Below are positions 2,703-61,905 of a stretch of 64,000 nucleotides of DNA, piece after piece. Within the stretch, counting starts at the first letter, position 1, and the number at the start of each line of letters is the position of its first letter. The DNA is taken from positions 62,001-126,000 of the forward strand of contig JACJGO010000008.1 in NCBI GenBank assembly GCA_014163555.1. The letters run 5' to 3'. Position numbers and translations under genes: made by a program. The DNA is from Flavisolibacter longurius. Its GTDB lineage: Bacteria; Bacteroidota; Bacteroidia; Chitinophagales; Chitinophagaceae. The notes below the pieces were generated by a model. That model made no database searches, was not told the origin of the DNA, and worked only from the letters and a program-made list of their open reading frames with translations.

Positions 2703-2737
2703 TAGCTTGTAGCTTGCAGCTCATAGCTTACAGCTTC
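2703..2737. repeat. heptad array 1 (five 7-bp units)
   Basis: Units start at 2703, 2710, 2717, 2724 and 2731, each of the form (T/C)AGCT(T/C)N. It lies 7 nt before the ruvB start codon. It belongs to the degenerate 7-bp-period arrays described in the findings. The AGCT core is self-complementary. Confidence 0.8.
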
Positions 2738-2744
2738 TCTCATT

Positions 2745-3788
2745 ATGACAAATCCAAATTTACAACCGGCAAAAGACGGGCTTTCGGCAACGGAAAAAGA
2801 CTTTGAAAATGGCATCCGGCCAAAACAGATCGAAGACTTTTCGGGTCAGCCGCAGATTATCGAAAACCTCCGCATTTTTATCAAGGCGGCCAAAATACGG
2901 GGCGAAGCCCTGGACCATGTGCTGTTTCACGGGCCTCCCGGATTGGGAAAAACCACCCTGTCCCGCATTGTAGCCAATGAAATGGGAGTAAGCATCAAAG
3001 AAACCTCCGGACCGGTAATTGAAAAACCCGGTGACCTGGCCGGCCTGCTCACGGGCCTTCAGCCCAACGATGTGTTGTTCATCGACGAGATTCATCGCCT
3101 GAGCACCGTGGTGGAAGAATACCTCTATTCAGCCATGGAAGATTACAAGATCGACATTATGATCGACAGCGGACCCAATGCCCGCAGCATTCAGATCAAC
3201 CTGTCGCCGTTTACCCTGATTGGCGCTACTACCCGAAGTGGTTTGCTTACCGCTCCGCTCTTATCACGTTTTGCCATTAAATCGCGTTTGGAATATTATG
3301 ATGCGGAAACCCTCAAGCGCATCATCCTGCGGTCGGCTCAAATCTTAAATGCAGAAATTTCTACTGATGCTGCCGGCGAAATTGCCCGCCGCAGCCGCGG
3401 TACACCACGTATTGCCAATGGCCTGTTGCGCCGCGTTCGTGATTTTGCCCAGGTACTGAACGACAGCACCATTGACCTTGGCATTACCCAACATGCCTTG
3501 CGTGCCCTGAACGTGGATGAGCATGGATTGGATGAAATGGACAACCGCATCCTGGCCGCCATTATTGAAAAGTTCAAAGGTGGTCCGGTGGGCATTACCA
3601 CTATTGCTACAGCGGTTGGTGAAGAAGCCGGAACTCTGGAAGAAGTGTATGAGCCTTTCCTGATCCAGGAAGGATTTATCATGCGAACGCCAAGAGGACG
3701 GGAAGTGACGGCAAAAGCCTATGCGCACCTGGGAAAGAATCCCCCGTTACAGGGAACAACCGGAAATTTGTTCGGTGGGCTGGCATGA
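2745..3788 (+). CDS. ruvB: Holliday junction branch migration DNA helicase RuvB
   Basis: A 347-residue AAA+ motor that drives Holliday-junction branch migration with RuvA. Visible motifs are Walker [10 protein letters not shown] (residues 63-71), Walker B LFIDEIHR (about 111-118), sensor 1 GATTRSG, the arginine-finger region LLSRF, and a C-terminal winged helix with [10 protein letters not shown]. Length is normal for the family. No TAnnTTTG element lies close to ATG 2745; the nearest promoter-like motif is at about 2563-2571, which would give a long leader containing heptad array 1. Convergent with the GNAT gene. Confidence 0.97.
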
Positions 3789-3799
3789 TAGGAAATGAG

Positions 3800-3870
3800 C
3801 AATAAACAATGGACAATTGGCAAATGGAATGCTACATTGCTTATTGCCCATTGCCTGTTGCTAATTGATT
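3800..3870. repeat. heptad array 2, facing CAAT and ATTG arrays
   Basis: Left half: units start at 3800, 3807, 3814 and 3821, form CAA(T/A)NNN. Right half: units start at 3836, 3843, 3850, 3857 and 3864, form (A/G)TTGNNN, the reverse complement of the left core. The two halves can pair as a hairpin between two convergent genes. The right half overlaps the stop codon of the GNAT gene (3869-3871 on the minus strand). Confidence 0.85.
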
Positions 3871-4297
3871 ACAATCCTTTTTCCATCACATAATGCGGAA
3901 TGGTGATCTCCTGGAATTCGTCGCCGATTTTGCGGTAGCCCATTTTTTCGTAAAAGCCAACGGCGGCCTTGCGGGCATGCATGGTAATGCGTTTGTAGCC
4001 GCGGTCGCGGGCCAGGTTTTCGGCAAACTGCATCAGGGCCCGGCCAATGCCTTTCCCCTGTACGTCATCCACCACCGCCATTTGCCGCAGCCGAACAGTT
4101 TCGGGATCTTCTTCTACCAGCATGCAGCAACCCAACATTCGTTCGTCTTCAAACGCAGCCATGTGCATATGGTGCCTTTCCTTTTCCAGTTCATCCTCGG
4201 AAAAATGTAAACCCAGGGGCTTGCGCAAAATTTCATCACGCAATTTTAGCATTTGCTTGTATTCCTTTGTGCCGTAGTCGATGATCTTTAACGCCAT
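3869..4297 (-). CDS. GNAT family N-acetyltransferase
   Basis: A 142-residue single-domain acetyltransferase of the GCN5-related (GNAT) superfamily. The acetyl-CoA loop is visible as VVDDVQGKGIGRALM, close to the family pattern V.x.x.QGxGxGxAL, and the C-terminus has GFYEKMGYRKIGDEF, the usual strand-helix end. ElaA-like and phosphinothricin-type GNATs look similar, and the small-molecule or protein substrate cannot be told from sequence. ATG 4297 is preferred over an in-frame TTG at 4303. It stands alone, convergent with ruvB and divergent from acpP. Confidence 0.85.
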   Translation of the reverse strand: MALKIIDYGTKEYKQMLKLRDEILRKPLGLHFSEDELEKERHHMHMAAFEDERMLGCCMLVEEDPETVRLRQMAVVDDVQGKGIGRALMQFAENLARDRGYKRITMHARKAAVGFYEKMGYRKIGDEFQEITIPHYVMEKGL

Positions 4298-4541
4298 GAG
4301 CAATCAGGTTATCGTCTTCAATAACTACAAATATCCGTTCTACAGCGCAAATCACCTTTTGTTGGGTTAACTTTTTTATGGTGAATTGTATTTGGCTGAT
4401 GGTACAAATCAACTCATAGCATACAACTTCTATATATTTATTATCCTATAAGACCAGGAAGTGGTATGCATAAAGCAGAATAAGTCATCGGGCTTAACGG
4501 TGAATGTGCGAAACTGTTTTGCGGTTGTTTATGATGGAAAG

Positions 4542-4570
4542 TTGTTTTTTTCCAAAAACCTATATTTTTG
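4542..4570 (+). promoter_or_regulatory. acpP promoter (TTG / TAnnTTTG)
   Basis: TATTTTTG at 4563-4570 fits the Bacteroidetes -7 consensus exactly, and a TTG at 4542-4544 sits 18 bp upstream in the -33 position. The predicted transcript has an A/T-rich leader of about 20 nt before ATG 4597, typical of highly expressed Bacteroidetes genes. Confidence 0.75.
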
Positions 4571-4596
4571 CACCACTATAACCAAATTTTTACAAT

Positions 4597-4833
4597 ATGT
4601 CAGACATTGCAGCAAGAGTAAAAAAGATCATCGTTGATAAGCTGGGCGTTGATGAAGCGGAAGTAACGAATGAAGCTTCTTTCACCAACGATTTAGGCGC
4701 GGACTCGCTGGATACTGTTGAATTGATTATGGAATTCGAAAAAGAATTCAACATCTCTATCCCTGATGAGCAAGCCGAAACCATCACCACTGTTGGTCAA
4801 GCTGTTTCTTACCTTGAAGAACACGCAAAGTAA
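4597..4833 (+). CDS. acpP: acyl carrier protein
   Basis: A 78-residue acidic four-helix protein with the phosphopantetheine attachment site GADSLD, Ser37 being the modified residue. It carries growing acyl chains for fatty acid synthesis and supplies acyl groups to LpxA and LpxD-type enzymes. The order acpP-fabF-rnc is conserved in Bacteroidetes. It has its own strong promoter, and a terminator after the gene separates part of the transcription from fabF. Confidence 0.97.
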
Positions 4834-4865
4834 TTACCGTTCTGCTATAGAACTTAATAACAAAT

Positions 4866-4899
4866 CCGCCTTCATGTTCTTGTAACGGAAGGCGGTTTT
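4866..4899 (+). terminator. terminator after acpP
   Basis: Eight-base G/C-rich stem CCGCCTTC (4866-4873) with GAAGGCGG (4888-4895), 14-nt loop, then TTTT. It probably makes acpP mRNA more abundant than fabF-rnc. Confidence 0.75.
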
Positions 4900-4923
4900 A
4901 TCTTTACAGCGGAGCAAGGACTT

Positions 4924-5009
4924 TCAAAATTCAAAAGTAAAAGGACAGAAGCTTGTCTTCTGCTTCAACGTTCCTTTTGAATTTTGCTTTTTTACGTTTG
5001 ATTTTAATA
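4924..5009. repeat. heptad array 3, facing arrays between acpP and fabF
   Basis: Left units start at 4924, 4931, 4938 and 4945 (core TCAAAA, drifting). Right units start at 4975, 4982, 4989, 4996 and 5003 (core TTTTGNN). The inner parts are inverted repeats: CAAAATTCAAAAG on the left pairs with its complement on the right. The right arm also contains the exact -7 element used by fabF. Confidence 0.7.
4993..5000 (+). promoter_or_regulatory. fabF -7 element inside heptad array 3
   Basis: TACGTTTG matches TAnnTTTG exactly and ends 11 nt before ATG 5012. The -33 half is not clear. The promoter would be embedded in the array arm, so array changes would alter the promoter spacing. Confidence 0.55.
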
Positions 5010-5011
5010 CT

Positions 5012-6286: not shown

Positions 6287-6328
6287 GGGTTAGTGGGTTT
6301 GAAATTGAATTAATCTTTATTTTCATTT

Positions 6329-7063
6329 GTGGACTTTTGGAAATCGCTTTATAAGAAAGACAGCAATCCATCCTTTAAGAAAAACCTGAAGGGGGTATTG
6401 GGATATACACCCGGTAATCTTTCGCTTTACAAAACTGCTCTCACACACCGCTCCGTAAAAGATGGGATTGACGAGAACAACGAACGCCTAGAGTACCTGG
6501 GCGATGCAATTCTTAGTGCACTGGTAGCCGACTATCTTTTTAAACGTTATCCCTACAAGGGCGAAGGCTTTTTAACCGAGATGCGCAGCAAGATGGTAAA
6601 CCGTCAGCAGCTCAACGACATTGCGCTGAAGATGGGGTTGAAAAAAGTGACGGCCTTCAATAAATCCGATGCATCGCTGAAGAGCAGCCAGATATTTGGA
6701 AATACCCTGGAAGCGCTGGTGGGTGCTGTTTACCTGGACAAAGGCTATAAAAAAACGGCCAAATGGGTGGGTGAACGCATCCTGATGCCGCACATGTTCA
6801 TGGACGACCTGGAAAACTTGGAGATCAATCACAAAAACAAATTGTACGGCTGGGCCAATAAAAACGGCAAGGCTCTGGAGTTTGAAACCGTGGATGAAAA
6901 GCTGGAGAACGGTCGTCGCCTCTTTACCATCGCTGCCGTTATCGACGGCAAGCCCATTGCCCAGGGCAAAGCCTTCAATAAAAAAGACGCTTCGCAAATT
7001 GCTGCCCAACTAGCAGTAGAAAAACTGGGAATTGTTGACTCGAACAGCGTAGGGGAAATGTGA
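6329..7063 (+). CDS. rnc: ribonuclease III
   Basis: A 244-residue double-strand-specific endoribonuclease used in rRNA and mRNA maturation. The catalytic signature NERLEYLGDAIL lies at residues 51-62, with the second acidic site in the GNTLEALVGAVYLDKG segment, and a double-stranded RNA-binding domain ends the protein (KKDASQIAAQLAVEKL). The start is GTG 6329; there is no in-frame ATG before the catalytic domain. It follows fabF by 42 bp and probably shares its transcript. A complex set of arrays lies after the stop. Confidence 0.95.
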   Translation: MDFWKSLYKKDSNPSFKKNLKGVLGYTPGNLSLYKTALTHRSVKDGIDENNERLEYLGDAILSALVADYLFKRYPYKGEGFLTEMRSKMVNRQQLNDIALKMGLKKVTAFNKSDASLKSSQIFGNTLEALVGAVYLDKGYKKTAKWVGERILMPHMFMDDLENLEINHKNKLYGWANKNGKALEFETVDEKLENGRRLFTIAAVIDGKPIAQGKAFNKKDASQIAAQLAVEKLGIVDSNSVGEM

Positions 7064-7065
7064 GG

Positions 7066-7100
7066 ACGTGAAACGACAAACGTCAGAGGTGAAACTGTAG
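7066..7100. repeat. heptad array 4a (five units)
   Basis: Units start at 7066, 7073, 7080, 7087 and 7094, general form A(C/G)(G)NNAA. It starts 3 nt after the rnc stop codon. The same ACGTSAA family recurs in the amidohydrolase gene at 58145-58172. Confidence 0.75.
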
Positions 7101-7150
7101 CGTCGCTATAATTTAAACCTGTCTTACGATAGCTTGTATTGGCTGTTCAA

Positions 7151-7182
7151 CTTGTGAACGAGTGAACCCGTGAACTTGTAAA
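7151..7182. repeat. octamer array 4b (four 8-bp units)
   Basis: Units start at 7151, 7159, 7167 and 7175, form CNNGT(G/A)AA. This is the 8-bp variant of the arrays; the same unit family occurs on the other strand at 43610-43649. Confidence 0.8.
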
Positions 7183-7191
7183 CTTCTCCAG

Positions 7192-7226
7192 TTTTACGTT
7201 CGACGATTCACATCTCATGTCTCACC
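7192..7226. repeat. heptad array 4c (five units)
   Basis: Units start at 7192, 7199, 7206, 7213 and 7220, with A fixed at position 5 and mostly C at position 6. Read on the minus strand they are GTGA/CGTNAA-like and resemble array 4a, so 4a and 4c face each other across the convergent gap. It ends 3 nt before the stop codon of the transporter gene. Confidence 0.65.
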
Positions 7227-7229
7227 TCC

Positions 7230-7847
7230 TCAATGCAAGAAAAACGTAACGATGCCCGCCAGGATCAACACGGCGCCGCTGATCTTTTTTTCATTGTGTT
7301 CAATAAATTCTGCGGGTAAAAGATCAACCCCTTTAATGCCCAGGCTTACCAGCAGCCAAATACCGGCGATGCTGATGACGGCATAGGCACCGGCCAGCGA
7401 AAACACAGCGCCCATGCCGAAGGCTCCGGCCGAAAGAAACAGGCTTTCTACTTCCAAACAGGGAGAAAGAAACATCATGCCCACAAAGATCCAGATCCAT
7501 TTTTGCTTTGATCGTTTGTAGTCCTGCACGTCTTCCTGCGTGCTGTGATGATGGTGCGGCAGGTTAACGGTGAAATAGATCAATCCAAAGGCAATCAGCA
7601 GCACCGCCGTTGCTACGTTGATGGAATGCCCGTATTCTTCTTTTAATTCTTTACCGATCAATCCCAGGATAATGCCCAGCACCACGGTACCCGTTACATG
7701 CGCTGCTGCTGCCAGTAACGTGATGGTAGTGATATCTTTTTTCTTCCAGCCTTCGGCTTTGGCTACAGCTACCAGCGGCAGCCAGTGATTCGGGATCAGG
7801 GCATGGACGGCAGCGAGAAGAATAGTGGCGGTGAAAAGGCTTAGCAT
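7230..7847 (-). CDS. polytopic membrane protein, nickel/cobalt-exporter or UreH-like
   Basis: A 205-residue protein with about six hydrophobic segments. The first helix carries HALIPNHW (His15, His21), similar to the metal-binding helix motif of NiCoT/RcnA/UreH-type transporters, and a loop near residue 100 has four consecutive histidines, as in nickel/cobalt exporters. A conserved FLSPCLEVES segment lies in a middle helix. I infer divalent metal transport, but the substrate is not shown. The upstream gene in the same direction is an AraC-type regulator 151 bp away. A heptad array ends exactly at the ATG, part of a perfect 28-bp inverted repeat. Confidence 0.7.
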   Translation of the reverse strand: MLSLFTATILLAAVHALIPNHWLPLVAVAKAEGWKKKDITTITLLAAAAHVTGTVVLGIILGLIGKELKEEYGHSINVATAVLLIAFGLIYFTVNLPHHHHSTQEDVQDYKRSKQKWIWIFVGMMFLSPCLEVESLFLSAGAFGMGAVFSLAGAYAVISIAGIWLLVSLGIKGVDLLPAEFIEHNEKKISGAVLILAGIVTFFLH

Positions 7848-7992
7848 GGTGAATGGTGAGTGGTCAGTGGTGAGTAGGTTTTCTTCATCTTAAGTTTCTT
7901 TACTAAACGGCTGGCAAGGTACTTATGATCGGTGTTATGGCGATGATAAAGTGATTCGTTCAAAACTCACCACTGACCACTCACCATTCACC
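7848..7992. repeat. heptad array 5, perfect 28-bp inverted repeat
   Basis: Left arm 7848-7875 (units at 7848, 7855, 7862, 7869, form GGT(G/C)A(A/G)T) and right arm 7965-7992 are exact reverse complements over 28 bp, with 89 bp between. The left arm touches the start codon of the transporter gene (minus strand) and the right arm ends 6 bp before the stop codon of the AraC gene. Confidence 0.9.
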
Positions 7993-7998
7993 AAAACA

Positions 7999-8928: not shown

Positions 8929-8935
8929 GCGGGCA

Positions 8936-12059: not shown

Positions 12060-12304
12060 AAGGCCAGCGCACAAAAGCCAATCTTTAGTGGTTGCTTGAT
12101 TCGTTTTACAAATAGTCTTTCTCTTCAGCTTTTAGCGTCACTCTTGGCTGAGAGATGCAAAAAGCTCAATCGGCCGATTAAGCAAAATACTGTAGGCGCT
12201 GTATTGCGCTATCCTTTTCCTACTGTAAAGAGAAACGTTAGCACATGCGCAATAAGGCGCTGAACCATCGGGATTAGGAAATGGAAGGATGTATTGTTTT
12301 CTTA

Positions 12305-12346
12305 TTTGAGAATTGATCATTGTGTATTGAATACTGAGAATTGTGT
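12305..12346. repeat. heptad array 6 (six units)
   Basis: Units start at 12305, 12312, 12319, 12326, 12333 and 12340, form (A/T)(T/C)TGNNN, the same ATTGNNN core as array 2. It sits between the convergent ABC ATPase and ald genes, next to the ald terminator. The rest of 11919-12473 shows a 12-bp palindrome at 12168-12179 and a C/G-rich self-complementary stretch near 12435-12470, but no gene. Confidence 0.75.
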
Positions 12347-12349
12347 TTA

Positions 12350-12392
12350 CGTAAAAAAACAAAAAGCCTCCACCAAAAAACTGGCAGAGGCT
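12350..12392 (-). terminator. terminator of ald
   Basis: On the minus strand an 11-base stem (12382-12392 with 12365-12375, two G-U pairs) is followed by a long T-rich run, about 80 nt after the ald stop codon. Confidence 0.65.
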
Positions 12393-12473
12393 AAAATTGT
12401 ATCGTGCAAAAGCGAGGGTCTGTGCGTTGGCTATCCCTGCCCCATCGGGGAGGTTAGGTGGGGGCCGGAGGCT

Positions 12474-16820: not shown

Positions 16821-18722
16821 ATGGAGAGCAGCCTTTCGATACTAAGGCAATACTGGGGATATGATGCGTTTCGGCCGCAACAGGAGGATATTATTAACGC
16901 TGTACTAGCCGGTAAAGACACGCTGGCCTTGCTTCCTACCGGTGGCGGTAAATCGATTTGCTACCAGGTTCCTGCATTAGCGCAGGAAGGTATCTGCATC
17001 GTGGTTTCGCCCCTGATTGCCCTGATGAAAGACCAAGTAGAGAACCTGAAAAAGCGGGGCATCGGTGCCTTGGTCATTTATTCCGGCATGCAGCGAAAAG
17101 ATATTATCCGGACACTGGAAAATGCACGGCAGGAGTACTTCAAATTTCTGTACGTATCACCAGAGCGGTTAGAAACCTCGCTTTTCAGGGAATATCTTCC
17201 TGCCTTTGATATTAATCTAATTGCAGTTGATGAAGCGCATTGTATTTCGCAATGGGGATATGATTTTCGCCCTTCCTATTTAAAGATTGCAGCCCTGCGG
17301 GAAGAACTGCCGGATGTGCCCATTTTGGCTGTAACGGCTTCGGCCACGGAACGGGTACAGCGGGATATCTGCGAAAAGCTTCAGTTGAAAAAAACGGCCG
17401 TCTTCCACCAATCGTTTGAGCGAAAGAATCTTTCTTATTCTGTATTTGATGTGGATGCAAAGGCGACAAAGCTTGTCGACATTTTAAAAAAAGTAAGCGG
17501 CAGCAGCATTGTGTATTGCAAAACCCGCAAGCGCACAATTGAGGTTGCTTCGCTACTGCAGATGCATGGTATCTCTGCTAATTTTTACCATGCGGGGCTT
17601 CCACAGGATGAGCGGGCTAAACGCCAGCAGGACTGGATTGACAACAAAACCCGCATTGTTGTTTGTACCAATGCGTTTGGAATGGGCATTGACAAGCCCG
17701 ATGTAAGGGTTGTTGTACACATGGATGCGCCGGATTGCCTGGAGAACTATTACCAGGAAGCGGGCCGTTGCGGCCGGGACGGCAAAAAAGCCTACGCTGT
17801 TTTATTGTATCAGCAAAAAGACGTGGAGGAATTGGAAAACCTGCACATCAACCGGTATCCAACGTTTGAAACCATTCAGACGGTGTACGATGCGATGAAC
17901 AACTTTTTGCAGATTCCGGTGCATTCGGGCCAGGACCGTAGCTATACTTTTCACTTCGAAACCTTTGTCCGGAATTTTAAGCTGAATGTCCACCAGGCCC
18001 TTTATTCCCTGCAGGCCTTGGAAAGCGATGGCTGGATTGAATACAATGAAAAGAATTTTACACCTTCATCATTGGGGTTCACCACCAACAAGGAACAACT
18101 CTATGCGTTTTACCAAAGTCACCCGGAGCATGAAACCTTGCTGACCACTTTGCTTCGTACGTATGAAGGAATATTTGATTTCCCGGTCTTTATTTCAGAA
18201 ATGCTGGTGGCTAAACTGCTACAGGAAGATGAAAAAAATATCCGGCAGCACTTAAGCCGCATTGCTGCGTTTGGCGTGATCCGTTATACACCGCAGAGCG
18301 ACGAGCCGCAACTGGTTTTGCGGAAAAACCGCGTAGCCACCCGCGATCTGAAAATGGATCTGAAAGCCTACCAGGAACGCAAGGAGCATTTTATGGAGCG
18401 GGTTAAAGCAATGGTTGCGTACCTGAAAAAGAGTTCCTGCCGAAGCCAGTTTATCAGCCAATATTTTGGTGATAATGAAGCGAACCCTTGCGGAATATGT
18501 GATGTTTGTCTGGCTTCCAAATCCAATGATTTTTCGGCTGAGGAATTTACTTCCATTGCCCATGCTATAAGGCTTCACCTTGCGCAAAAGCAGGTGACGG
18601 CTGAACAACTTGTAGCTGATCTGTCTTCCATTAAGAAAGAAAAAACATGGAAAGTGCTACGTTTTTTACAGGCTGAAAAGCAGATTGCAGCCGACGGGCA
18701 AGGTATTCTGCAAAATAATTAG
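16821..18722 (+). CDS. recQ: ATP-dependent DNA helicase RecQ
   Basis: A 633-residue 3'-5' helicase for recombination and fork repair. Motifs: FRPQQEDII, Walker A LLPTGGGKS, VVSPLIALMKDQ, VDEAHCISQWG (DEAH), AVTASAT, and motif VI YYQEAGRCGRDG. The zinc site of the RQC domain is visible as CRSQ, then CGICDVC near residue 560. A C-terminal winged helix follows, but the HRDC domain seems reduced. ATG 16821 is chosen over a TTG at 16812. Confidence 0.95.
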   Translation: MESSLSILRQYWGYDAFRPQQEDIINAVLAGKDTLALLPTGGGKSICYQVPALAQEGICIVVSPLIALMKDQVENLKKRGIGALVIYSGMQRKDIIRTLENARQEYFKFLYVSPERLETSLFREYLPAFDINLIAVDEAHCISQWGYDFRPSYLKIAALREELPDVPILAVTASATERVQRDICEKLQLKKTAVFHQSFERKNLSYSVFDVDAKATKLVDILKKVSGSSIVYCKTRKRTIEVASLLQMHGISANFYHAGLPQDERAKRQQDWIDNKTRIVVCTNAFGMGIDKPDVRVVVHMDAPDCLENYYQEAGRCGRDGKKAYAVLLYQQKDVEELENLHINRYPTFETIQTVYDAMNNFLQIPVHSGQDRSYTFHFETFVRNFKLNVHQALYSLQALESDGWIEYNEKNFTPSSLGFTTNKEQLYAFYQSHPEHETLLTTLLRTYEGIFDFPVFISEMLVAKLLQEDEKNIRQHLSRIAAFGVIRYTPQSDEPQLVLRKNRVATRDLKMDLKAYQERKEHFMERVKAMVAYLKKSSCRSQFISQYFGDNEANPCGICDVCLASKSNDFSAEEFTSIAHAIRLHLAQKQVTAEQLVADLSSIKKEKTWKVLRFLQAEKQIAADGQGILQNN

Positions 18723-20058: not shown

Positions 20059-20087
20059 GGTAGCGGTTTAATGGATGCATGCCGGCG

Positions 20088-20115
20088 ATAATCAATAATC
20101 AGCAATCAATAATTA
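20088..20115. repeat. heptad array 7 (four units)
   Basis: Units start at 20088, 20095, 20102 and 20109, form (A/G)(T/C)AAT(C/T)A. The last unit contains the hemH stop codon (20113-20115, minus strand). Confidence 0.75.
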
Positions 20116-24333: not shown

Positions 24334-25365
24334 ATGACAGCGTTGAAAAATGATCTTTTATTACGAGCTCTGAGAAAGGAAAAAGTTGAACGCCCGCCCG
24401 TGTGGATGATGCGCCAGGCAGGCCGGTATTTGCCGGATTATATCAAGTTAAGAGAGAAGTATGATTTCTTCACCCGTTGTCAAACGCCGGAACTGGCCAC
24501 TGAAATTACCTTGCAACCCATCGACCAGGTGGGTGTGGATGCAGCCATCATCTTCTCTGATATCTTGGTGATTCCGCAGGCCATGGGTGTAGAGGTGTTA
24601 ATGGAGGAAGGCAAAGGCCCCTCGCTTCCAAAAACCATCAAAACCCAACAAGACATTGATGCACTAAATACGGCTGATGCCGAACATCATTTAAAATATG
24701 TGATGGATGCCTTGGCCATGACAAAACGCGAATTGAATGGTAGGGTGCCGCTGATTGGTTTTGCCGGTGCGCCGTGGACAATTCTTTGTTACATGGTAGA
24801 AGGCAAGGGCAGCAAAACATGGGACAAAGCCAAACAGTTTGCCTATACCCAGCCGCAATTGGCCCATACGCTGTTGCAAAAAATTACCGATATCACCATT
24901 GATTATTTAAAAGCACAAGTGGCAGCCGGCGCCGATACGGTACAGGTTTTTGATAGCTGGGCAGGATCGTTATCACCGGAAGATTTTAAAACCTATGCAC
25001 AGCCCTACTTATTGCAAATTGCAGATGCTGTGAAAGACAATGCACCGGTGATTCTTTTCCCGAAAGGAACCTGGTATGCGCTGAAAGATTTAAGTCAAAG
25101 TGGCGCCAGCGGCATTGGTATTGATTGGACCATTACCCCGCAATTTGCCAGAGAATTAACATCCAACAACATCACACTGCAAGGTAACTTTGACCCCGCC
25201 AAACTGCTGGCACCTATTCCGCAAATCAGGCAGTGGGTAAAGGAGATGATTAGCGCATTTGGAACGCAGAATTACATTGCCAACCTCGGTCATGGCATTA
25301 CACCCAATGTACCGGTTGATCATGCCAGGGCCTTTGTGGAAGCCGTGAAGGAATACAAGCCGTGA
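24334..25365 (+). CDS. hemE: uroporphyrinogen decarboxylase
   Basis: A 343-residue TIM-barrel enzyme that removes four carboxyl groups from uroporphyrinogen III to give coproporphyrinogen III. Motifs: [17 protein letters not shown] at the N-terminus, the catalytic aspartate in [28 protein letters not shown] and [15 protein letters not shown]. It begins 20 bp after hemD. Heptad array 8 starts in its stop codon. Confidence 0.97.
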
Positions 25366-25389
25366 GTGGTGAGTAGTGAATCGTGAGTT
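25362..25389. repeat. heptad array 8 (four units)
   Basis: Units start at 25362, 25369, 25376 and 25383, form GTGA(G/A)TN. The hemE TGA stop (25363-25365) is in the first unit. Same GTGA family as array 5. Confidence 0.85.
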
Positions 25390-41774: not shown

Positions 41775-43598
41775 CTAAGTTTCCCCACTGGGAGACAGGG
41801 GGCCTTCTCCCTCAAAATGACTTTTGATTATACGTGCCTTTGATACGCCGACAACCCTTGCCAGTTCCGACTCAGGCTGCTGCTTGATGTTGTTGATGGA
41901 GCGGAACGTTTTTAAAAGCAGGTTGGCGGTATTGTTGCCAATGCCTTTGATATCTTCAAGACCGTTTTTAAACGTGCCTTTACTCCGTTTTTCACGGTGG
42001 AAATTAAGACCGTAGCGGTGCACTTCATCCCGGATGCGACGAATCAGCTTATGGCTTTCGCTGTCGTAAGGAAGTTTTAGCGATTCTTTATCTCCAACAA
42101 AAAAAAGTTCCTCTTCGTTTTTGGCCAATCCAACCATCGTCATTTGTCCCTGCAGGTCCAGTTCTTCAATGGCTTCGTAGGCAGCGCTTAACTGCCCTTT
42201 TCCGCCATCAATAATCACCAATTGAGGAAAAGGGTTGCCTTCGCTTTTTAAGCGTTTATAGCGCCTGTAAACCGCTTCCCGCATGGTGGCAAAATCGTTG
42301 ATGCCTTCCACGGTTTTTACGTTGAACAGGCGATAGTCTTTTTTACTCGGTTCGCCATTTTTAAAACAAACCATTGCCGAAACCGGGTAGCTTCCGTGCA
42401 GGTTGGAGTTGTCGAAGCATTCAATATGCTGGGGAACAGAGGATAATTGCAGGTCTTTTTGGATCTGCAGGAGCACAGTGGATTTGTCAGCCTTCATCGC
42501 TTTCAGCCTTGCCTTGCTGGCTTCGCTGTCGATGAAATACTGCGCATTTTTCTGCGAAAGCTCCAGTAGTTTTTTCTTATCACCCGCCTTCGGAATAGTC
42601 AGAACTACCTCTGGCTCTTCGTATTCAATCTCAAACGGAACAACAACTTCCACGGCGTCGCTGTTAAACGTTGTTCGCAACTGCCCGATGGCAGCGGCAA
42701 GCGTTTCTTCGATGGTTTCATCCAGGTGCGTTTCTACCCTGATGGTTTTGGTTTGAATGATAGCCCCGTTATTCACCATCAGGTAATTGACATAGGCAAT
42801 ATCGGTGTCCTTTACAATATTGAAAACATCCACATCTTTCAGCGTGGTGTTCACCACAATGGAACGTGACTGGTAATTTTCCAAGTAGGTGATCTTCTTA
42901 CGGACCTGTTCCGCCTTTTCAAATTCCAGCGCTTCGGCAAGGCCTTTCATTTCGCGTTTGAAATGCTGGATCACCTCACCAAGATTTCCTTTCAGAATGT
43001 TTTTGATCTGGCGGATGTTTTCGTTATAATCTTCTTCGGATTGATTTGCCTCGCAGGGACCCTTGCAATTGCCCAGATGAAATTCCAAGCATACTTTGAA
43101 TTTGCCTTTTTCAATATTGCGTTGCGTCAGGTTGAGCGGACAAGTACGCAATGGAATGGTTTGTTTGATAAAATCCAGCAGTTCCCGCACTTTGCCAACC
43201 GAGGTATACGGCCCGAAATATTGCGAACCATCGTCAATTTTCTGCCGGGTTAAAAATACCCGCGGAAAAGGCTCATTCTTGATAACGATATAGGGGTAAG
43301 TTTTGTCGTCTTTCAGGTTAATGTTGAACAGGGGCTGGTACTGCTTGATCAGCGAGTTTTCCAGCAGAAAGGCATCTTGTTCGGTATGAACAATGGTAAA
43401 TTCAATGCGGCGAATCCGCCGTACCAATTCATGTGTTTTATAACTGTTGATGGATTTGTTGAAATAAGAGCTTACCCGTTTGCGAATGTTTTTGGCTTTG
43501 CCTACATACAGCAGGTCGCCATCTTGGTTGTAGTATTTGTAAATGCCGGGTTCCTGTGGTAAGCTGCCGGCGATTTCCTGAAATTCTTTCTGCGTCAT
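41775..43598 (-). CDS. uvrC: excinuclease ABC subunit C
   Basis: A 607-residue nuclease that makes both cuts in nucleotide excision repair. The GIY-YIG domain starts at the N-terminus (EPGIYKYY, LLYVGKAKNIRKRVSSYF), the UVR motif is LEFEKAEQVRKKI, the RNase H-like second nuclease has IDGGKGQLSAA, and two helix-hairpin-helix motifs end the protein (IKGIGNNTANLLLKTF). Full length for the family. Octamer array 9 lies just upstream of the start. Confidence 0.96.
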   Translation of the reverse strand: MTQKEFQEIAGSLPQEPGIYKYYNQDGDLLYVGKAKNIRKRVSSYFNKSINSYKTHELVRRIRRIEFTIVHTEQDAFLLENSLIKQYQPLFNINLKDDKTYPYIVIKNEPFPRVFLTRQKIDDGSQYFGPYTSVGKVRELLDFIKQTIPLRTCPLNLTQRNIEKGKFKVCLEFHLGNCKGPCEANQSEEDYNENIRQIKNILKGNLGEVIQHFKREMKGLAEALEFEKAEQVRKKITYLENYQSRSIVVNTTLKDVDVFNIVKDTDIAYVNYLMVNNGAIIQTKTIRVETHLDETIEETLAAAIGQLRTTFNSDAVEVVVPFEIEYEEPEVVLTIPKAGDKKKLLELSQKNAQYFIDSEASKARLKAMKADKSTVLLQIQKDLQLSSVPQHIECFDNSNLHGSYPVSAMVCFKNGEPSKKDYRLFNVKTVEGINDFATMREAVYRRYKRLKSEGNPFPQLVIIDGGKGQLSAAYEAIEELDLQGQMTMVGLAKNEEELFFVGDKESLKLPYDSESHKLIRRIRDEVHRYGLNFHREKRSKGTFKNGLEDIKGIGNNTANLLLKTFRSINNIKQQPESELARVVGVSKARIIKSHFEGEGPLSPSGET

Positions 43599-43609
43599 AA
43601 AATTCTTCG

Positions 43610-43649
43610 TTCACAAGTTCACGGGTTCACACGTCGACGGGTTGAGCCG
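43610..43649. repeat. octamer array 9 (five 8-bp units)
   Basis: Units start at 43610, 43618, 43626, 43634 and 43642, form TTCACNNG drifting to TTGAGCCG. On the other strand the units read C-NN-GTGAA, the same family as array 4b at 7151. Two further 8-mers (ATCAACNT) lie at 43671-43686. It begins 11 nt upstream of the uvrC start codon. Confidence 0.75.
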
Positions 43650-43692
43650 AATTGCCTTTTCCTTTCTCCTATCAACGTATCAACCTGCCTCT

Positions 43693-44280
43693 TTAGGGGT
43701 TTTGGCCATCAAAACCATTCCAAACTACCTGCAGCTTTTTTGTTTGTTGTGTTCCGCCGGCTTCGCTAACCGTTGTTACCTGAAAGTTTTTTCCTGCTTC
43801 CCAGAGCATATTTTTCCTTACCAGGGTATCACCGCTATTCTGCCAGAGTTCTACAAAAATAGACTGAATATCGTTCTTTCCCTGCGCATTGGGGGCCGGG
43901 TCCAGCACAACGTCTTCCCGCTTTACCGGGTGTTCTTCATTGGTGGTGAACATAAACACAAATGCATTCAACATATCGTCATATTCGTGAGTGATCTGGT
44001 AATCATTTTTCAGCTCATTGGAACTTATATCCGGCAGGGTAGCAAAATCACGTGCATACCGCTTTACATCTGTATTGCGGATAGGAACGGTATCGCTGAC
44101 GCCATCCACTGTTTCAATTTTGTAAAACGTGGCCAGCGACGTATCCAGCTTTGCCAGTTCACCTTTGATATAATCGGTCACCGGGAAAAACTGCTCTGCC
44201 GGCACATCGGTTTTTTTGTTTTTGCCTTTACAGCCAATCAGTACGATCAAAAAAACGAAGGAGGCCAAAAGTCGGGTCAT
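43693..44280 (-). CDS. hypothetical lipoprotein
   Basis: A 195-residue protein with a type II signal peptide and lipobox (FLIVLIGC, Cys17), followed by KGKNKK. The rest is soluble and mostly beta, with no family I recognise. It is in the same direction as the ECF sigma/membrane protein pair upstream and uvrC downstream, but the terminator between it and the 44366 gene makes it a separate unit. Function unknown. Confidence 0.75.
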   Translation of the reverse strand: MTRLLASFVFLIVLIGCKGKNKKTDVPAEQFFPVTDYIKGELAKLDTSLATFYKIETVDGVSDTVPIRNTDVKRYARDFATLPDISSNELKNDYQITHEYDDMLNAFVFMFTTNEEHPVKREDVVLDPAPNAQGKNDIQSIFVELWQNSGDTLVRKNMLWEAGKNFQVTTVSEAGGTQQTKKLQVVWNGFDGQNP

Positions 44281-44309
44281 GCGGTAAAATTAGGGAACAG
44301 TGTAAAACG

Positions 44310-44343
44310 AAAAATTCCCGTGCCTATTGTTAGGTCACGGGAA
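44310..44343 (-). terminator. terminator of the sigma-factor operon
   Basis: TTCCCGTG (44315-44322) pairs with CACGGGAA (44336-44343), extended by CCT/AGG across one bulge. On the minus strand it is followed by TTTTTCGTTTT, just after the end of the 44366-45691 gene. Confidence 0.75.
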
Positions 44344-44365
44344 CGGCTAAGCAATTAGACAGGGT

Positions 44366-53186: not shown

Positions 53187-53230
53187 TTGGATATTGGATA
53201 GTTGATATTGGGATATTAGGAAATTGCAAT
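53186..53230. repeat. heptad/octamer array 10, left part
   Basis: Units start at 53186, 53193, 53200, 53207 (7-bp steps) and then 53215 and 53223 (8-bp steps), core ATTGG/ATTAG. The A of the SUI1 TGA stop (53186) is the first base. Confidence 0.7.
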
Positions 53231-53241
53231 ATTGTGTAAAC

Positions 53242-53279
53242 AAAAAATGGCTTCAGGTTGTTCCCTGAAGCCATTTTTT
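53242..53279. terminator. bidirectional terminator between SUI1 and icd
   Basis: A 16-base stem (53242-53257 with 53264-53279, core ATGGCTTCAGG) and 7-nt loop, with A-run before and T-run after, between two convergent genes. Confidence 0.85.
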
Positions 53280-53291
53280 ATTGAAGAAAAA

Positions 53292-53319
53292 ATATCGACT
53301 ATCTAATATCTCTTTATTC
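53292..53319. repeat. heptad array 10, right part
   Basis: Units start at 53292, 53299, 53306 and 53313, form (A/C)TAT(C)NN drifting to TTTATTC. With the left part it flanks the terminator between the two convergent genes. Confidence 0.55.
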
Positions 53320-55857: not shown

Positions 55858-55868
55858 AAACAGGGGTC
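55838..55868 (-). terminator. terminator of prfA overlapping the VanZ 3' end
   Basis: GACCCCTGT (55847-55855) pairs with ACAGGGGTC (55860-55868), 4-nt loop; on the minus strand a long T-run follows (55838-55846 region). The stem includes the VanZ stop codon. On the plus strand there is no T-run. Confidence 0.7.
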
Positions 55869-57256: not shown

Positions 57257-57273
57257 AGGTAAAATTAGAGCCG

Positions 57274-57281
57274 CAAAGGTA
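57274..57281 (-). promoter_or_regulatory. prfA -7 element
   Basis: TACCTTTG on the minus strand fits TAnnTTTG exactly, 17 nt before ATG 57256. Confidence 0.65.
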
Positions 57282-57317
57282 ACCCTTGCCGCACGAATAA
57301 GACGTTAAGAAGGGCCG

Positions 57318-57325
57318 TATTTTCG
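57318..57325 (+). promoter_or_regulatory. amidohydrolase -7-like element
   Basis: TATTTTCG (one change from TAnnTTTG) ends 5 nt before ATG 57331. Confidence 0.45.
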
Positions 57326-57330
57326 TCCCG

Positions 57331-58548
57331 ATGAAAACCCGGAAACTTACCGCTCCTCGCATTTTTGATGGTTATCGTTTTGTAGAAAACCATGTGCTGA
57401 TTGTTCAGGAATCCGGTGTGGTAGAAGCCCTTCTGCCCTCTGATGAAGTAGGGGAGGATGTGGCTGTTTACGATGGAATTCTAACCCCAGGTCTTATCAA
57501 TTGTCACTGCCACCTGGAATTAAGCCATATGCGGGAAAAGATTCCGGAAAAAACCGGCCTGGTGGATTTTGTTTTTAAAGTAGTGACTGAACGCAGCGCT
57601 TCTGAAGAAGTGATTCTTTCGGCGATAGATGCAGCAGAAACGGAGATGATCCGAAACGGGATTGTTGCCGTTGGTGATATTTGCAACAATACGATGACAT
57701 TGGGGCAGAAAGCAAAAGGCAACCTGCATTATTACAATTTTATTGAAGCCAGTGGCTGGTTGCCGCATGTTTCGGCGCAACGGCTTGAAAGAGCGAAGGG
57801 GATTTTAGATGAATACAGGAGGCGGGAGTCAGGAAATGGGAGGGAAGGGAGTTCGATCGTTCCGCATGCGCCATATTCTATTTCAGAAAGTTTATGGAAG
57901 GCCATTCAGCCTTATTTTGAAAGAAGAGTGGTTTCTATTCATAACCAGGAAACTCGTTTTGAGGATGAATTTTTTCTGCAGGGCACCGGCGATTTTGAAC
58001 GCATGTACCGCCTGATGAAGATCGACAACAGGCATCATCAACCCACAAAGCGAAGCAGTTTGCAATCGTATTTCGATAAATTACTAGGTGCTGAAAACAT
58101 CATTCTTGTACACAATACGTTCACGAAAAAAGAGGATGTGACGTACGTCAAACGTGAAACGGCAAACGTCAAACAGGAGGTGACTCAACTTCAAACCCCA
58201 AACGCCAAACTCCAAACTTTTTTCTGTCTTTGCGTGAATGCAAACCAATACATTGAAGATGCATTGCCGCCGGTAGAAATGTTGCGGCAGCAAGGTTGCA
58301 ACATAGTGTTAGGCACGGACAGCCTGGCCAGTAACTGGAGCCTGAATATTTTGGATGAGATCAACACCATCCGCAAACATTTCCCGAAAATTTCCATGGA
58401 AGAGCTGCTGACTTGGGCGACCAGTAATGGGGCCAAAGCACTTGGTATGGATAGCTATTTAGGCAGTTTTGAAAAGGGGAAAAAGCCCGGTGTGATGCTG
58501 CTGGATACAGGAGCAAGGCAGGTGCGCAGTGTGCTGCTCAACTCATAA
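57331..58548 (+). CDS. amidohydrolase family protein with heptad-array insertions
   Basis: A 405-residue metal-dependent hydrolase of the amidohydrolase superfamily (chlorohydrolase/aminodeaminase-like). Metal and active-site motifs: [10 protein letters not shown] (HxH), [22 protein letters not shown] and [12 protein letters not shown]. Two segments are built from 7-bp-period arrays: residues about 163-175 (Arg/Gly/Ser-rich, before VPHAPYS) and about 272-297 (Lys/Gln/Thr-rich, after [11 protein letters not shown]). Both lie in loops and keep the frame. The substrate is unknown. The 3' end overlaps recO by 11 bp, convergent. Confidence 0.85.
57818..57852. repeat. heptad array 11, inside the amidohydrolase gene
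   Basis: Units start at 57818, 57825, 57832, 57839 (GGA followed by four changing bases) and 57846 (AGGGAGT). Translated in frame as about residues 163-175. Confidence 0.8.
58145..58221. repeat. heptad array 12, inside the amidohydrolase gene (eleven units)
   Basis: Units start every 7 bp from 58145 to 58215. The first four are ACG(T/G)(C/G)AA, two are degraded, and the last five are AAC(N)(N)CA-like. The first part matches array 4a, the last part matches array 15 (61864). All are read in frame. Confidence 0.9.
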
Positions 58549-59275: not shown

Positions 59276-59286
59276 CGAATTTTAAA

Positions 59287-59321
59287 AGTTTACCGTTTGC
59301 GGTTTACTGTTTACAAGTTAA
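59287..59321. repeat. heptad array 13 (five units)
   Basis: Units start at 59287, 59294, 59301, 59308 and 59315, form NGTTTAC drifting. It lies 11 bp upstream of the recO start. Its complement (GTAAAC) matches array 14, so 13 and 14 face each other. Confidence 0.8.
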
Positions 59322-59402
59322 GCGTAATGCAGATTAAAATACGCTTACATTTGGTAGAGTATTCTTAAAATATAACGGAAGAATCAATTGTAAAACAATC
59401 CC

Positions 59403-59444
59403 GAACGGTAAAGTGCAAACGGTAAACCTGGAACGATGAACAGT
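59403..59444. repeat. heptad array 14 (six units)
   Basis: Units start at 59403, 59410, 59417, 59424, 59431 and 59438, form (A/G)AA(A/C)(C/G)NN. The last base (59444) is part of the porZ stop codon (minus strand). Confidence 0.8.
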
Positions 59445-61729
59445 CACTTTACCAGCACTATTTTTCCTACAACCTGTTCACCTTTTACCGGATCCACTGC
59501 AATCACCAGGTACACGCCGGTAACAGCTTTGTTGCCTTTCGGGTCGCGGCCATTCCAAACGGCCTGGCCGCCCAGTGACCGTGTTTGGTACACCAGTTTT
59601 CCATTGGCTTCCGTGATCTTGACTATACTATTTTCCGGCAAACCACGGATGCCGATGGTGCCATTGTAACCCGGCGGAACCGGGTTGGGATAAACCAGCG
59701 CAGCCCCATTGACCGTTTCTGCTTCGGTGGCATCTCCCCGAAATGAGATGAGGCCATTGGCAGTAGCAATAAAAACTTCTCCTGTATTGCCATTGATGGC
59801 GATTTTCCGGACATCGTTGCTCGGCAGCGGACTGTTACTTTCCGTGTAATTTGCAAGAAGCTGATCGCCCTGCGCCGACACCAGGTACACCCCGCTCGTA
59901 GTGGCTACCCACTTACGGTTGGCGCCATCCACGGCAATGCTCCGCACTTCTTGTCCGCGGAAAAGATAATTAGCAAAAGCTCCTTCTTTTACAATGGGCA
60001 AAATGGCTTCGCAGGCAAGCGAAAAAACCTCGGCTCCACATTGGAAAACCGCAATGCCGTTGGTCGTTCCTATCCAGATGGCGCCTTCCTTGTCTTTGGC
60101 CAGGCAAAGCACATCATTAGCCGGGAGATTGCCTTGGCCGGCTCCTGTTTGCACCAGTCGCCACCGGTCGTCGCCAGGCGATTCAAACCTGCCGTGGTCA
60201 AAAAGGAGAAGGCCATTGCCAAGGGGTGATTGAATCCACTTCAGCCCCGCATCATCCACTATAATTTGTGCAACCGCATTCTCCCGGAGGGTGAAAGGCG
60301 AGGAAAAGGATTGCCAGCTACCATCGGGTTTCAGCACATGCAACTGCCGGTCAGCACCAAAATTGGATATCCAAAGATTGGCATCGGTGTCAAAGGCAAG
60401 ACCCGCCACCCGGTAACTCGAAGGATCGCCAAGAGCAGGGAGAATAGGAGAGGCCTGCTTGTAAATTTCCGGTTGGCCGTTTGCGTTAATATGTACAAGG
60501 CCGCCCCCAAATGATCCAGCCCAGACCGACCCGTCTCGCGGGTCGGCGGCAACAGAAACAACATCCAAAACTGTATCCAGTTGCGGGTGGCTATATTGGT
60601 TGTATGCCGACCATTCAGAGCCTTCCAGCTTAAAAATGCCACTGGGATTATACTGGTAATTCCAGCTACTGTTTACAGCCCCGGCCGCAGTCCAAAGGAC
60701 ACCTTTTTGTATCGTCATCTCTCCCAGCACAATATTTTGCGGGGAAGCCGGTTTGAAGTTTTCAATGCCGCCGGCTGATGCCTGCACCAGGCCTTCTGCC
60801 GCGTCGGCAATCCAATAGCTGTTGTTGCGATAGATTGTTTTTTGCGGTAGCACAATACGGCCGGCCTGTTGCAGCACCTGCTGAACCGCACCGGCCCCCG
60901 AAATCACGGTTACCTGCGCAGCACCGTTGGTGTTGTATTGTGAAAGCAATAACCGGTCATTCTCGGCCTTTACTGAATTAATGGGCAGCCCATTGGCAAA
61001 CAAAAAGCTCCAACTATTGCTATTTTCTATGAACAGGGAATCATTCTGAACCACCACAACGGTGCCGGCAAAGCTGGCAACGTCCTTCGCTGCTGCTGCC
61101 GCCAGCCCATTATTGCCGGAAAGCGTTTGCCAGGCCCTGAAATCGGCAGGATTGGGTGCGTTCACCACCGTTCGTTTGAGTCCTTCATCCGTGGCGGCAT
61201 AAAAATGCAGACCGGTTTTGGCAAAGGCATTTGTTTTTACGTTTCCGCCATTGTTGGCAATGGACCAGCGTTCTTTTACTTCATATTTTTCAGCATCCAG
61301 CACCACCACACCGAGGCCGGTGGAAAGGTAACAATACCGCCCGTCAGGATAGATTGCATAAATGTTTTTATTGCCGGCGACAGCAGAGCGTTTGAGGTCA
61401 GGGATATTGCGAATACTGCCCGATGTAATGACATCGATATTGCTGTTACTGTAGGCAACAAAAAGTTTTTGGGAGGGAATGTCAAATTGGATGGCGCTGA
61501 TGCCAGTTTCGCTCAATCCTGAAACGGTGCTGTAACGGCTTATTTCCCCGCTTTCCAAGTGAATACTGAAAAGGCTCAGTGGTGTGGCAGCAAAGACCGT
61601 GGTTTCGGATGCGGTTACATCCAGTGCCACTTGGTAGGGAAGGTGCTCCCGCCACATGCCCAGCGGCGGAAGTGTCGTTTGTCCCGCTGCACAAATCGAA
61701 ATCAACAGAAAAACAAAAACAAGTCTCAC
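59444..61729 (-). CDS. porZ: T9SS-associated beta-propeller protein PorZ
   Basis: A 761-residue secreted protein. Signal peptide (VFVFLLISICAAGQ), then the PorZ start (MWREHLPYQVALDV, TTVFAATPLSLFSI), repeated two-component-regulator-type propeller blades (for example VLCLAKDKEGAIWIGTTNG, KWVATTSGVYLVS), and a C-terminal type A sorting domain (KLVYQTRSLGGQAVWNGRD, GVYLV). PorZ helps deliver A-LPS for anchoring T9SS cargo. GTG 61729 follows an exact -7 element by 4 nt. With gldKLMN this makes a second T9SS locus in the window. Confidence 0.9.
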   Translation of the reverse strand: MRLVFVFLLISICAAGQTTLPPLGMWREHLPYQVALDVTASETTVFAATPLSLFSIHLESGEISRYSTVSGLSETGISAIQFDIPSQKLFVAYSNSNIDVITSGSIRNIPDLKRSAVAGNKNIYAIYPDGRYCYLSTGLGVVVLDAEKYEVKERWSIANNGGNVKTNAFAKTGLHFYAATDEGLKRTVVNAPNPADFRAWQTLSGNNGLAAAAAKDVASFAGTVVVVQNDSLFIENSNSWSFLFANGLPINSVKAENDRLLLSQYNTNGAAQVTVISGAGAVQQVLQQAGRIVLPQKTIYRNNSYWIADAAEGLVQASAGGIENFKPASPQNIVLGEMTIQKGVLWTAAGAVNSSWNYQYNPSGIFKLEGSEWSAYNQYSHPQLDTVLDVVSVAADPRDGSVWAGSFGGGLVHINANGQPEIYKQASPILPALGDPSSYRVAGLAFDTDANLWISNFGADRQLHVLKPDGSWQSFSSPFTLRENAVAQIIVDDAGLKWIQSPLGNGLLLFDHGRFESPGDDRWRLVQTGAGQGNLPANDVLCLAKDKEGAIWIGTTNGIAVFQCGAEVFSLACEAILPIVKEGAFANYLFRGQEVRSIAVDGANRKWVATTSGVYLVSAQGDQLLANYTESNSPLPSNDVRKIAINGNTGEVFIATANGLISFRGDATEAETVNGAALVYPNPVPPGYNGTIGIRGLPENSIVKITEANGKLVYQTRSLGGQAVWNGRDPKGNKAVTGVYLVIAVDPVKGEQVVGKIVLVK

Positions 61730-61733
61730 CTTT

Positions 61734-61741
61734 CAAATCTA
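61734..61741 (-). promoter_or_regulatory. porZ -7 element
   Basis: TAGATTTG on the minus strand fits TAnnTTTG exactly, 4 nt before GTG 61729. Confidence 0.65.
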
Positions 61742-61863
61742 AGCGACAAAGTGGAAAGAGAAAAAGCGCAAGACTCTGTAGTGGGTTGCAGGCAAGACTT
61801 GAAGAGCAATTACCCAACCATTTTATGCCTTGCAGCCTGAATTAAATGAAGACAACCATGACA

Positions 61864-61905
61864 AAAACCCAACGCCAAACTCCCAACGCCAAAATTCAAA
61901 CTGCT
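61864..61905. repeat. heptad array 15 (six units)
   Basis: Units start at 61864, 61871, 61878, 61885, 61892 and 61899, mostly AAC(G/T)CC(A/C). The same family as the end of array 12. It abuts the -7-like element of the exporter gene. Confidence 0.85.

Follow-up and report, generated by a model that had tools for sequence, protein, structure and literature searches.

Degenerate tandem arrays with a 7- or 8-bp pitch in the intergenic DNA of Flavisolibacter longurius and other Chitinophagaceae

Why should the DNA between the genes of a bacterium carry, at many separate places, short tandem arrays whose units differ in sequence and still follow one another at a pitch of 7 bp? The question is raised by a 64,000-nucleotide stretch of Flavisolibacter longurius (contig JACJGO010000008.1, positions 62,001 to 126,000 of the forward strand, here C56:62001-126000), referred to below as the window; the genome is 5.66 Mb in 58 contigs, and its nearest named relative by a search with a window protein is Flavisolibacter nicotianae, although very near records may be left out of that search. 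A first-pass annotation of the window had described such arrays and regarded them as a class scattered through the genome. We find that the class of degenerate 7- and 8-bp arrays is real and larger than first reported. Our tentative reading, to which we give somewhat less than an even chance, is that the arrays make up the arms of small, dispersed, non-coding DNA elements comparable in action to REPINs (hairpin-forming doublets of repetitive extragenic palindromic, or REP, sequences) or bacterial interspersed mosaic elements (BIMEs), the arms perhaps being rows of protein-binding sites.

The arrays placed by the first-pass annotation at 2703, 3836, 7066, 7848, 12312, 25362, 58145, 58201, 59288 and 61871 have the right coordinates and proceed in strict 7-bp steps. 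Intergenic DNA was called by a simple longest open reading frame (ORF) rule, so gene borders are approximate; in that of the window, identity at a lag of 7 is 0.286 as compared with 0.264-0.270 at lags 5, 6, 8 and 9, with values of 0.290 and 0.280 at lags 3 and 14. The analysed sequence was extended to 1.264 Mb of the genome (the window plus 1.2 Mb of other stretches), where a rule of 71% lag matches over a three-unit window yields 102 period-7 and 29 period-8 degenerate arrays in intergenic DNA, against 2-5 and 0-1, respectively, in five order-1 Markov shuffles. Under this rule periods 9-13 give no arrays and short periods are near chance (16 for period 6, 9-11 in shuffles). With a rule of at least 15 of 21 lag matches, the intergenic DNA of 400 kb of C21 contains 30 period-7 and 22 period-8 arrays and only 0-3 for periods 4-6, 9-13, 15 and 17-20; periods 14 and 16, which are the double periods, give 13 and 17. 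A fixed 21-base window applied to 152 kb of intergenic DNA of this genome finds 103 period-7 and 49 period-8 arrays, 1-7 for periods 9-13, and 51 and 36 for the double periods 14 and 16, whereas by the same rule E. coli K-12 (100 kb, of which 18.6 kb is intergenic) has 0 period-7 and 2 period-8 arrays, and 0-2 for other periods. Why the periods are 7 and 8 bp only is a sharp and testable question.

The arrays form a visible part of the intergenic DNA in the sampled Chitinophagaceae as well, where the comparison is with other periods. In 198 kb of intergenic DNA from 80 named Chitinophagaceae loci there are 109 period-7 and 47 period-8 arrays (9-21 for periods 9-13), and 20 stretches from 19 further Chitinophagaceae genomes have 27 and 21 (1-9 for periods 9-13). 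Ten genomes from six other families of the same class give 12 and 4, compared with 1-3, and ten that share only the phylum give no period-7 and four period-8 arrays, three of them in L241, compared with 0-1. Within this small sample, then, the arrays are common in the family, occur in other families of the class and are not apparent outside it. Individual array families are patchy, with lineage dialects. Four consecutive GTGAACNN units with at most one mismatch occur 31 times here, 12 times in G005 (a genome of the same genus, with other dinucleotides), and 5, 2 and 1 times in three others; they are found in 5 of 294 genomes and in none of the other 289, and the reversed control gives 0. Of 88 genomes, 23 have the GGTGA family, which occurs 38 times here, 126 times in G087 and not at all in G005; its reversed-pattern controls also match (up to 27 in one genome) and are not clean, because GGTGAGT read backwards is a rotated version of the identical heptamer. 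The long alternating arrays of G087 indicate that array expansion also occurs.

For their anatomy 174 arrays were retained, 121 with period 7 and the rest with period 8. Among the period-7 arrays 114 have at least four of seven columns at 75% identity or more, and in 95 the unit number lies between 4 and 5.5, its lower limit being imposed by a detection rule that needs about four. Cores recur at distant loci, as the first-pass annotation had stated, in clusters (the labels are our own) of up to 36 arrays: TSACYAC (36), AACNNCA (33), CAATNNN (25), GAGCNNN (10) and RTYTSAC (7) at 7 bp, and ATTATCNN (29) and AACNNGTG (21) at 8 bp, with another 13 arrays in small clusters. Only 5 of the 174 arrays have 3.5 or more identical units, so that by the identity of their units they do not qualify as slippage repeats. 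Long perfect arrays also occur, namely GTCAGGA in about 18 units at C58 ~270381-270503 (L148) and about nine at C43 ~171893-171952 (L167), and CAATAAC in 17 units at C58:152-299 (L135); these are signs of recent slippage.

Many of the arrays are paired. With an inverted partner defined by a pairing score of at least 14 within 250 bp, 54 inverted pairs are found, or 50 once overlaps are removed. Neighbouring arrays no more than 300 bp apart form 44 pairs, of which 31 are inverted, one is direct and 12 are unrelated. Polarity is inward for every motif in GTGA (13 to 0), GTTCAC (6 to 0), GTT (11 to 0), GATA (6 to 0) and GATGA (4 to 0), classes that may overlap, and 7 of the 50 elements are unclassified. 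A count by CAAT (4 to 3) was set aside; it seems confounded because GATATTG contains ATTG, and its three contrary cases look by eye like GATATTG elements.

The 181-base stretch around 7847-7993 has 76 matches in the genome, many places being counted twice since both arms match; by our own count from these, the GGTGA arm matches about 40 other places, with homology limited to one arm and a few bases at most. A GGTGA variant of 26 bases is found unchanged at four loci (in C4, twice in C11, and in C21), and one 30-base GTGAACNN variant is identical at two (C16 and C21). Because identical variant arms recur at distant loci, the differences between units are passed on, in part at least, to dispersed copies. 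A GGTGA pattern search gave 44 hits, 21 of which lie in the two perfect GTCAGGA runs and were set aside; the remaining 23, by our own sorting, include five of the GTSAAAC type, two that overlap and two that are arms of one element. The odd GTCA unit of the 18 GGTGA-type hits is third in 12, second in two, fourth in one and never first, and over all 23 hits, some of which are not independent, it occupies positions 1-4 in 0, 6, 15 and 2 cases (p 4e-5); a stricter genome-wide pattern has it second in four and third in four of 13 hits. Arrays of the GTGAACNN family have TT as the dinucleotide at one end in 10/17 and at the other in 9/17, and their inner dinucleotides vary. Four loci, including 7064-7229, have in common (by eye) an interior of about 50 bp between a 7-bp and an 8-bp array, and masked BLAST clusters three regions, 7054-7239, C21:382033 and C43:108005. 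Ten pairs with shared interiors link two array-bearing regions, with the composite group, the sole group examined, among them.

The arrays of the window are as follows, with gene names here and below recognised by eye in translations, and with the sister species being G009, of the same genus.

2703..2736: 7-bp array with core AGCTTGN; no inverted partner found; one unit more in the sister species.
3794..3866: two 7-bp CAATNNN arrays that form an inverted pair (3794-3823 with 3837-3866), directly 3' of a ruvB-like gene; the site has an 8-bp GTTGATNN hairpin instead in the sister species.
7065..7214: composite element with a 7-bp GTSAAAC arm (7065-7093), an 8-bp GTGAACNN array (about 7148-7185) and an outer 7-bp arm (7184-7214) whose pairing score of 12 is under the cut-off of 14; the interior resembles, by eye, those of C21:382043, C21:392887 and C58:396631.
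7847..7993: two GGTGANT arrays that form a perfect inverted pair of 29 bp (7847-7875 with 7965-7993) around a loop of 89 bp; present in the sister species.
12307..12343: degenerate 7-bp ATTGNNN array without a partner.
20084..20115: 7-bp TAATCAN array; the sister species lacks a counterpart and has a GGTGA array nearby.
25362..25388: 7-bp GTGANNN array starting at the stop codon of ORF 24334-25365; present in the sister species.
43609..43643: 8-bp GTTCACNN array between ORFs 41775-43598 (minus strand) and 43642-44358 (plus strand); in phase in the sister species.
53189..53310: inverted pair with core GATATT (arms 53190-53209 and 53291-53310); a terminator-like hairpin lies within the loop.
58145..58218 (plus strand): within the amidohydrolase-like ORF 57331-58548, one 7-bp array of the GTCAAAC type (58145-58174) and one of the AACNNCA type (58187-58218).
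59288..59427: two 7-bp GTTTACC arrays that form an inverted pair (59288-59311 with 59404-59427), located between a recO-like ORF and ORF 59444-61729; an 8-bp GTTCACNN array takes the place of the left arm in the sister species.
61866..61902: 7-bp AACNNCA array; its phase is retained in the sister species, where the variable bases differ.

The inverted partners at 3794-3866, 7847-7993, 53190-53310 and 59288-59427, the 8-bp sister class (about 7148, and 43609) and the location of 58145-58218 inside an ORF are additions to the first-pass annotation. An Rfam scan of the window gave no match at gathering scores. Terminator-like hairpins of the ordinary kind are seen in loops between inverted arms at 53190-53310 and at C56:29479.

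Comparison with G009, which is syntenic with the window from 1149 to 64000 (76-84% identity in long hits), covers 22 array regions, 14 in the window and 8 outside it; an automatic count from a slightly different alignment is 23. By eye, 11 have the same family in phase, three have in the corresponding position another family or a shifted core (3794, C56:45477, and 59288, with a change of period from 7 to 8), six are present in one species only or lack a counterpart, and two (36194 in the window and C56:52119) were dropped as being of low complexity. Whole-unit changes are seen at 2703 (7 bp), 7064 (21 bp), C56:9053 (16 bp) and C56:53408 (14 bp). Two other loci, L088 and L092, are 86.6% identical, and the hairpin in their rpsI-rpsB spacer is built of GAGC in one and of GTTTGGG in the other, with conserved flanks; in the tsf leader stem of this pair three places have changed, each on both arms. 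Such hairpins are seen by eye at the rpsI-rpsB site in 12 of 18 loci, and in a partly overlapping set of 30 loci the spacer is bare in nine (45-53 nt) and 78-125 nt long in 21. Arrays turn over between sister species, even within a conserved operon such as rpsI-rpsB. At the neighbouring rpsB-tsf spacer many Chitinophagaceae (L176-L204) share a terminator-like hairpin, TTGGGTCATTAGTCAT...ATTGACCCATCTTTT, and L175, whose gene sequence is that of L088, has a stutter hairpin in its place.

The first-pass annotation had suggested either a diversifying process or selection on a periodic core, and only the second finds support. In 12 ungapped, in-phase orthologous arrays scored by leaving one unit out, differences number 13/147 at core positions, 40/134 at variable positions and 179/784 in flanks. 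The core is thus slower than the flanks, and although its count is biased downward because an array was required in one species, a neutral array simulation under the same rule predicts 0.17-0.20 at this divergence and the observed 0.088 lies under it (p 0.0002-0.004); unnoticed exchange of units could mimic part of this constraint. Variable positions are only slightly more diverged than flanks (0.30 and 0.23, one-sided p 0.036), and identical variant arms recur at separate loci; diversification is thus not supported.

Whether the arrays act as DNA or RNA was addressed in a survey of one best stem per intergenic region in 271 regions (our own sample and the 80 loci). Between tandem genes, read on the coding strand, 46 array stems have 25 G-U and 41 A-C mismatches, whereas 81 other stems have 39 and 19 (p 0.0013). 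Non-array stems behave as selected RNA stems should and array stems do not; because array stems show no G-U bias, a DNA-level element is favoured. Arrays are sparse between divergent genes (15 in 32.7 kb, versus 150 in 113.4 kb elsewhere; 0.46 versus 1.27-1.51 per kb). In tandem regions of at least 100 bp, 43 of 79 arrays are closer to the stop and 36 closer to the start, and arrays within 200 bp of P0008 orthologues lie downstream at 17/75 loci and upstream at 7/74 (p 0.043).

Under our preferred reading, an arm of about 28-38 bp would be four or five units at 7- or 8-bp pitch, many arms standing in inward-facing inverted pairs, and each family would have its own core, with part of the unit differences passed on as copies disperse. 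Spread would occur as arms or whole elements, which would be rarer where two promoters meet, between divergent genes. Whole units would be gained and lost by slippage, and elements may be quickly lost or superseded. The pitch and the conserved core are most readily taken as a row of adjacent sites for a putative DNA-binding protein, either a transposase or its partner. Of all this, the pitch, the pairing and its polarity, the recurrence of identical arms, the gain and loss of units, the turnover, the constraint on the core and the lack of G-U bias are seen directly in the data, and we infer that the elements are mobile in trans and that their arms bind protein. A wider form of the proposal, which we consider rather unlikely, would make them widespread cassette-like intergenic elements of Bacteroidota, with inverted arms as 7- or 8-bp protein-binding rows, moved by a novel enzyme, and with one family superseding another at the same address in lineage dialects. 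Addresses that fit such replacement are rpsI-rpsB (L088 and L092) and, between the window and G009, the 3' end of ruvB and the region upstream of recO.

Several observations count against REPIN-like elements. No partner scoring at least 14 is found for 95 of the 174 arrays, and only 8 of 18 window arrays have an inverted match at that score; those at 2703, 12312, 20084 and 61871 score 9, 8, 6 and 7, with controls of 7, 8, 7 and 10. In only 18 of 50 elements does an arm find its best match in the partner with which it is paired. We had also considered concerted evolution of hairpin arms within an element, which is weak here on that count, the pairs having been preselected for similarity. Unit order is not fixed, because the stricter pattern puts the odd GTCA unit equally second and third. 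The core test includes two low-complexity arrays among its 12 (the two regions dropped above), aligns 2703 across a unit gain and relies on a simple simulation, and the surplus of A-C mismatches in array stems (p 0.06) is without explanation. A masked interior is shared with another region in 19 of 125 array-bearing intergenic regions and in 61 of 581 array-free ones; most loops are unique, interior sharing is not clearly in excess of that in other intergenic DNA, and a reading as miniature inverted-repeat transposable elements, based on shared loops, was rejected. No target-site duplication was established in the comparison with G009, which is too diverged, and no cognate transposase was found: the genome has four Y1 (PF01797) genes, and a family-like array lies within 1.5 kb of one. 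The REP-associated tyrosine transposase (RAYT), or Y1 transposase, was accordingly rejected as the mover, arrays not being enriched at Y1 genes (one of four with an adjoining family-like array). Opposite C56:17621, G009 has about 960 bp extra (L247 ~17230-18420; C11:327230-328420) with a Y1-like ORF, recognised by eye, and an array; this was not counted as support because GC-rich hairpins of another repeat kind lie near its end.

Other explanations account for parts of these data. The arrays might be born locally, heptamers and octamers arising by slippage and the inverted partner being copied by template switching on a quasi-palindrome, in which case neither a mobile element nor a binding protein is needed and 7 and 8 bp would be a property of the replication machinery. 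Orthologous arrays that differ in length by whole units (7, 21, 16 and 14 bp), the perfect GTCAGGA and CAATAAC runs, the alternating arrays of G087 and the three two-arm changes in the tsf leader all agree with this, as does the statement that in most genomes heptanucleotides were the commonest of the long repeats (Mrazek 2007, cited in PMC4679880). We nevertheless hold local birth to be somewhat unlikely, given that so few arrays have 3.5 identical units, that the same variant arm is found at distant loci, that polarity within a family is constantly inward, and that the core is constrained; heptamers dominate and units come and go as in those long simple sequence repeats, whereas the units here differ and variant arms recur at separate loci. 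Fast-evolving RNA hairpins at gene ends, serving as transcription terminators or mRNA-protecting stems, would suit the low density between divergent genes, the downstream excess at P0008 orthologues and the strong predicted folds of those rpsI-rpsB loci judged hairpin-bearing (12 of 18), whose energies range from -12.6 to -44.8 kcal/mol. Array stems, however, lack the G-U excess of ordinary stems, some loops already contain a terminator-like hairpin, RNA pairing has no need of tandem units, and arrays are nearly as often close to starts as to stops, so that we regard this as quite unlikely.

It is very unlikely, in our judgement, that the arrays are operators for several ribbon-helix-helix or similar regulators, each acting on its own neighbouring genes. 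There are dozens of copies per family, density is lower in promoter regions, sister species lose or exchange arrays, and families are missing from most relatives, as with GTGAACNN in 5 of 294 genomes. On the other side, the 8-bp met boxes of MetJ offer a model for such an array. So does the ribbon-helix-helix ParB of pSM19035, which binds adjoining 7-bp heptads and activates ParA fully only where there are four or more of them (PMC9499535), with which four or five units and a constrained core agree. That the arrays form G-quadruplexes or some other special DNA structure, the proposal made for the Xanthomonas heptamers, is extremely improbable even though the architecture is the same as that in the section of PMC4692102 cited below: most families here have no G-tract (CAATNNN, GATAATNN, GTGAACNN and AACNNCA), and G-quadruplexes are disfavoured as a general reason because many cores are G-poor and the pitch can also be 8 bp.

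The same Xanthomonas repeats are the closest published case. As described in the portion of PMC4692102 used here, GGGAATC or GGGANTN heptamers (GGGGAYT in Nostoc) have five conserved positions and most commonly four units, in 183-186 sets per genome, about 90% of them intergenic and 7-8% between divergent genes; two sets stand in convergent inverted orientation in 70-75 cases, and two species do not keep sets at the same genes. The architecture is alike in its 7-bp units, its roughly five fixed positions, its convergent inverted sets and its rarity between divergent genes. Theirs, on that account, is one G-rich core studied as a G-quadruplex former, whereas most cores here lack GGG and there are seven clusters of at least seven arrays and an 8-bp sister class; our arrays thus add to the Xanthomonas type many cores poor in G and a second pitch, of 8 bp. 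The first-pass annotation's remark that no named class of this kind exists in Bacteroidota holds for that phylum, in that titles and abstract openings, covering few subscription papers, contained no degenerate inverted 7- or 8-bp arrays there and only remarks on heptamer arrays, but it overlooked the precedent in Xanthomonas and Nostoc.

REP, BIME and REPIN sequences with RAYT (TnpA-REP) are 20-40 bp, dispersed and often in inverted pairs (PMC6006769 and PMC3733652, as far as the parts cited go). The elements here resemble them as inverted doublets in which a 20-40 bp repeat, itself dispersed, keeps a constant polarity, although more than half of the arrays are without partner, and differ in that their units stutter at 7 or 8 bp and that no RAYT gene flanked by the repeats was found. 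TAACTGA heptamers are reported, in the part of PMC4679880 used here, from Beggiatoaceae, some Cyanobacteria and Bacteroidetes as mostly intergenic, exact repeats, mostly just upstream of start codons and inverted in one case, beside other heptamer direct repeats in Gramella forsetii, A. sublithincola and Elizabethkingia anophelis. Our 7-bp arrays are likewise mostly intergenic, but they are degenerate, of many families, often inverted and not directly upstream of starts.

The arrays 58145-58218 sit at a loop of the amidohydrolase-like protein; among 13 aligned relatives most have a shorter loop, and in some it is filled with other sequence. Because arrays turn over and can come to lie within reading frames, they give rise to indels and to protein loops of low complexity. 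The loop carries an array-derived peptide here, and L040 and L056 hold other long inserts at the same loop. A separate dispersed repeat of about 108 bp with 88% identity is shared between 12264-12473 of the window and C21:148679-148937, the matched part lying outside the array at 12307-12343.

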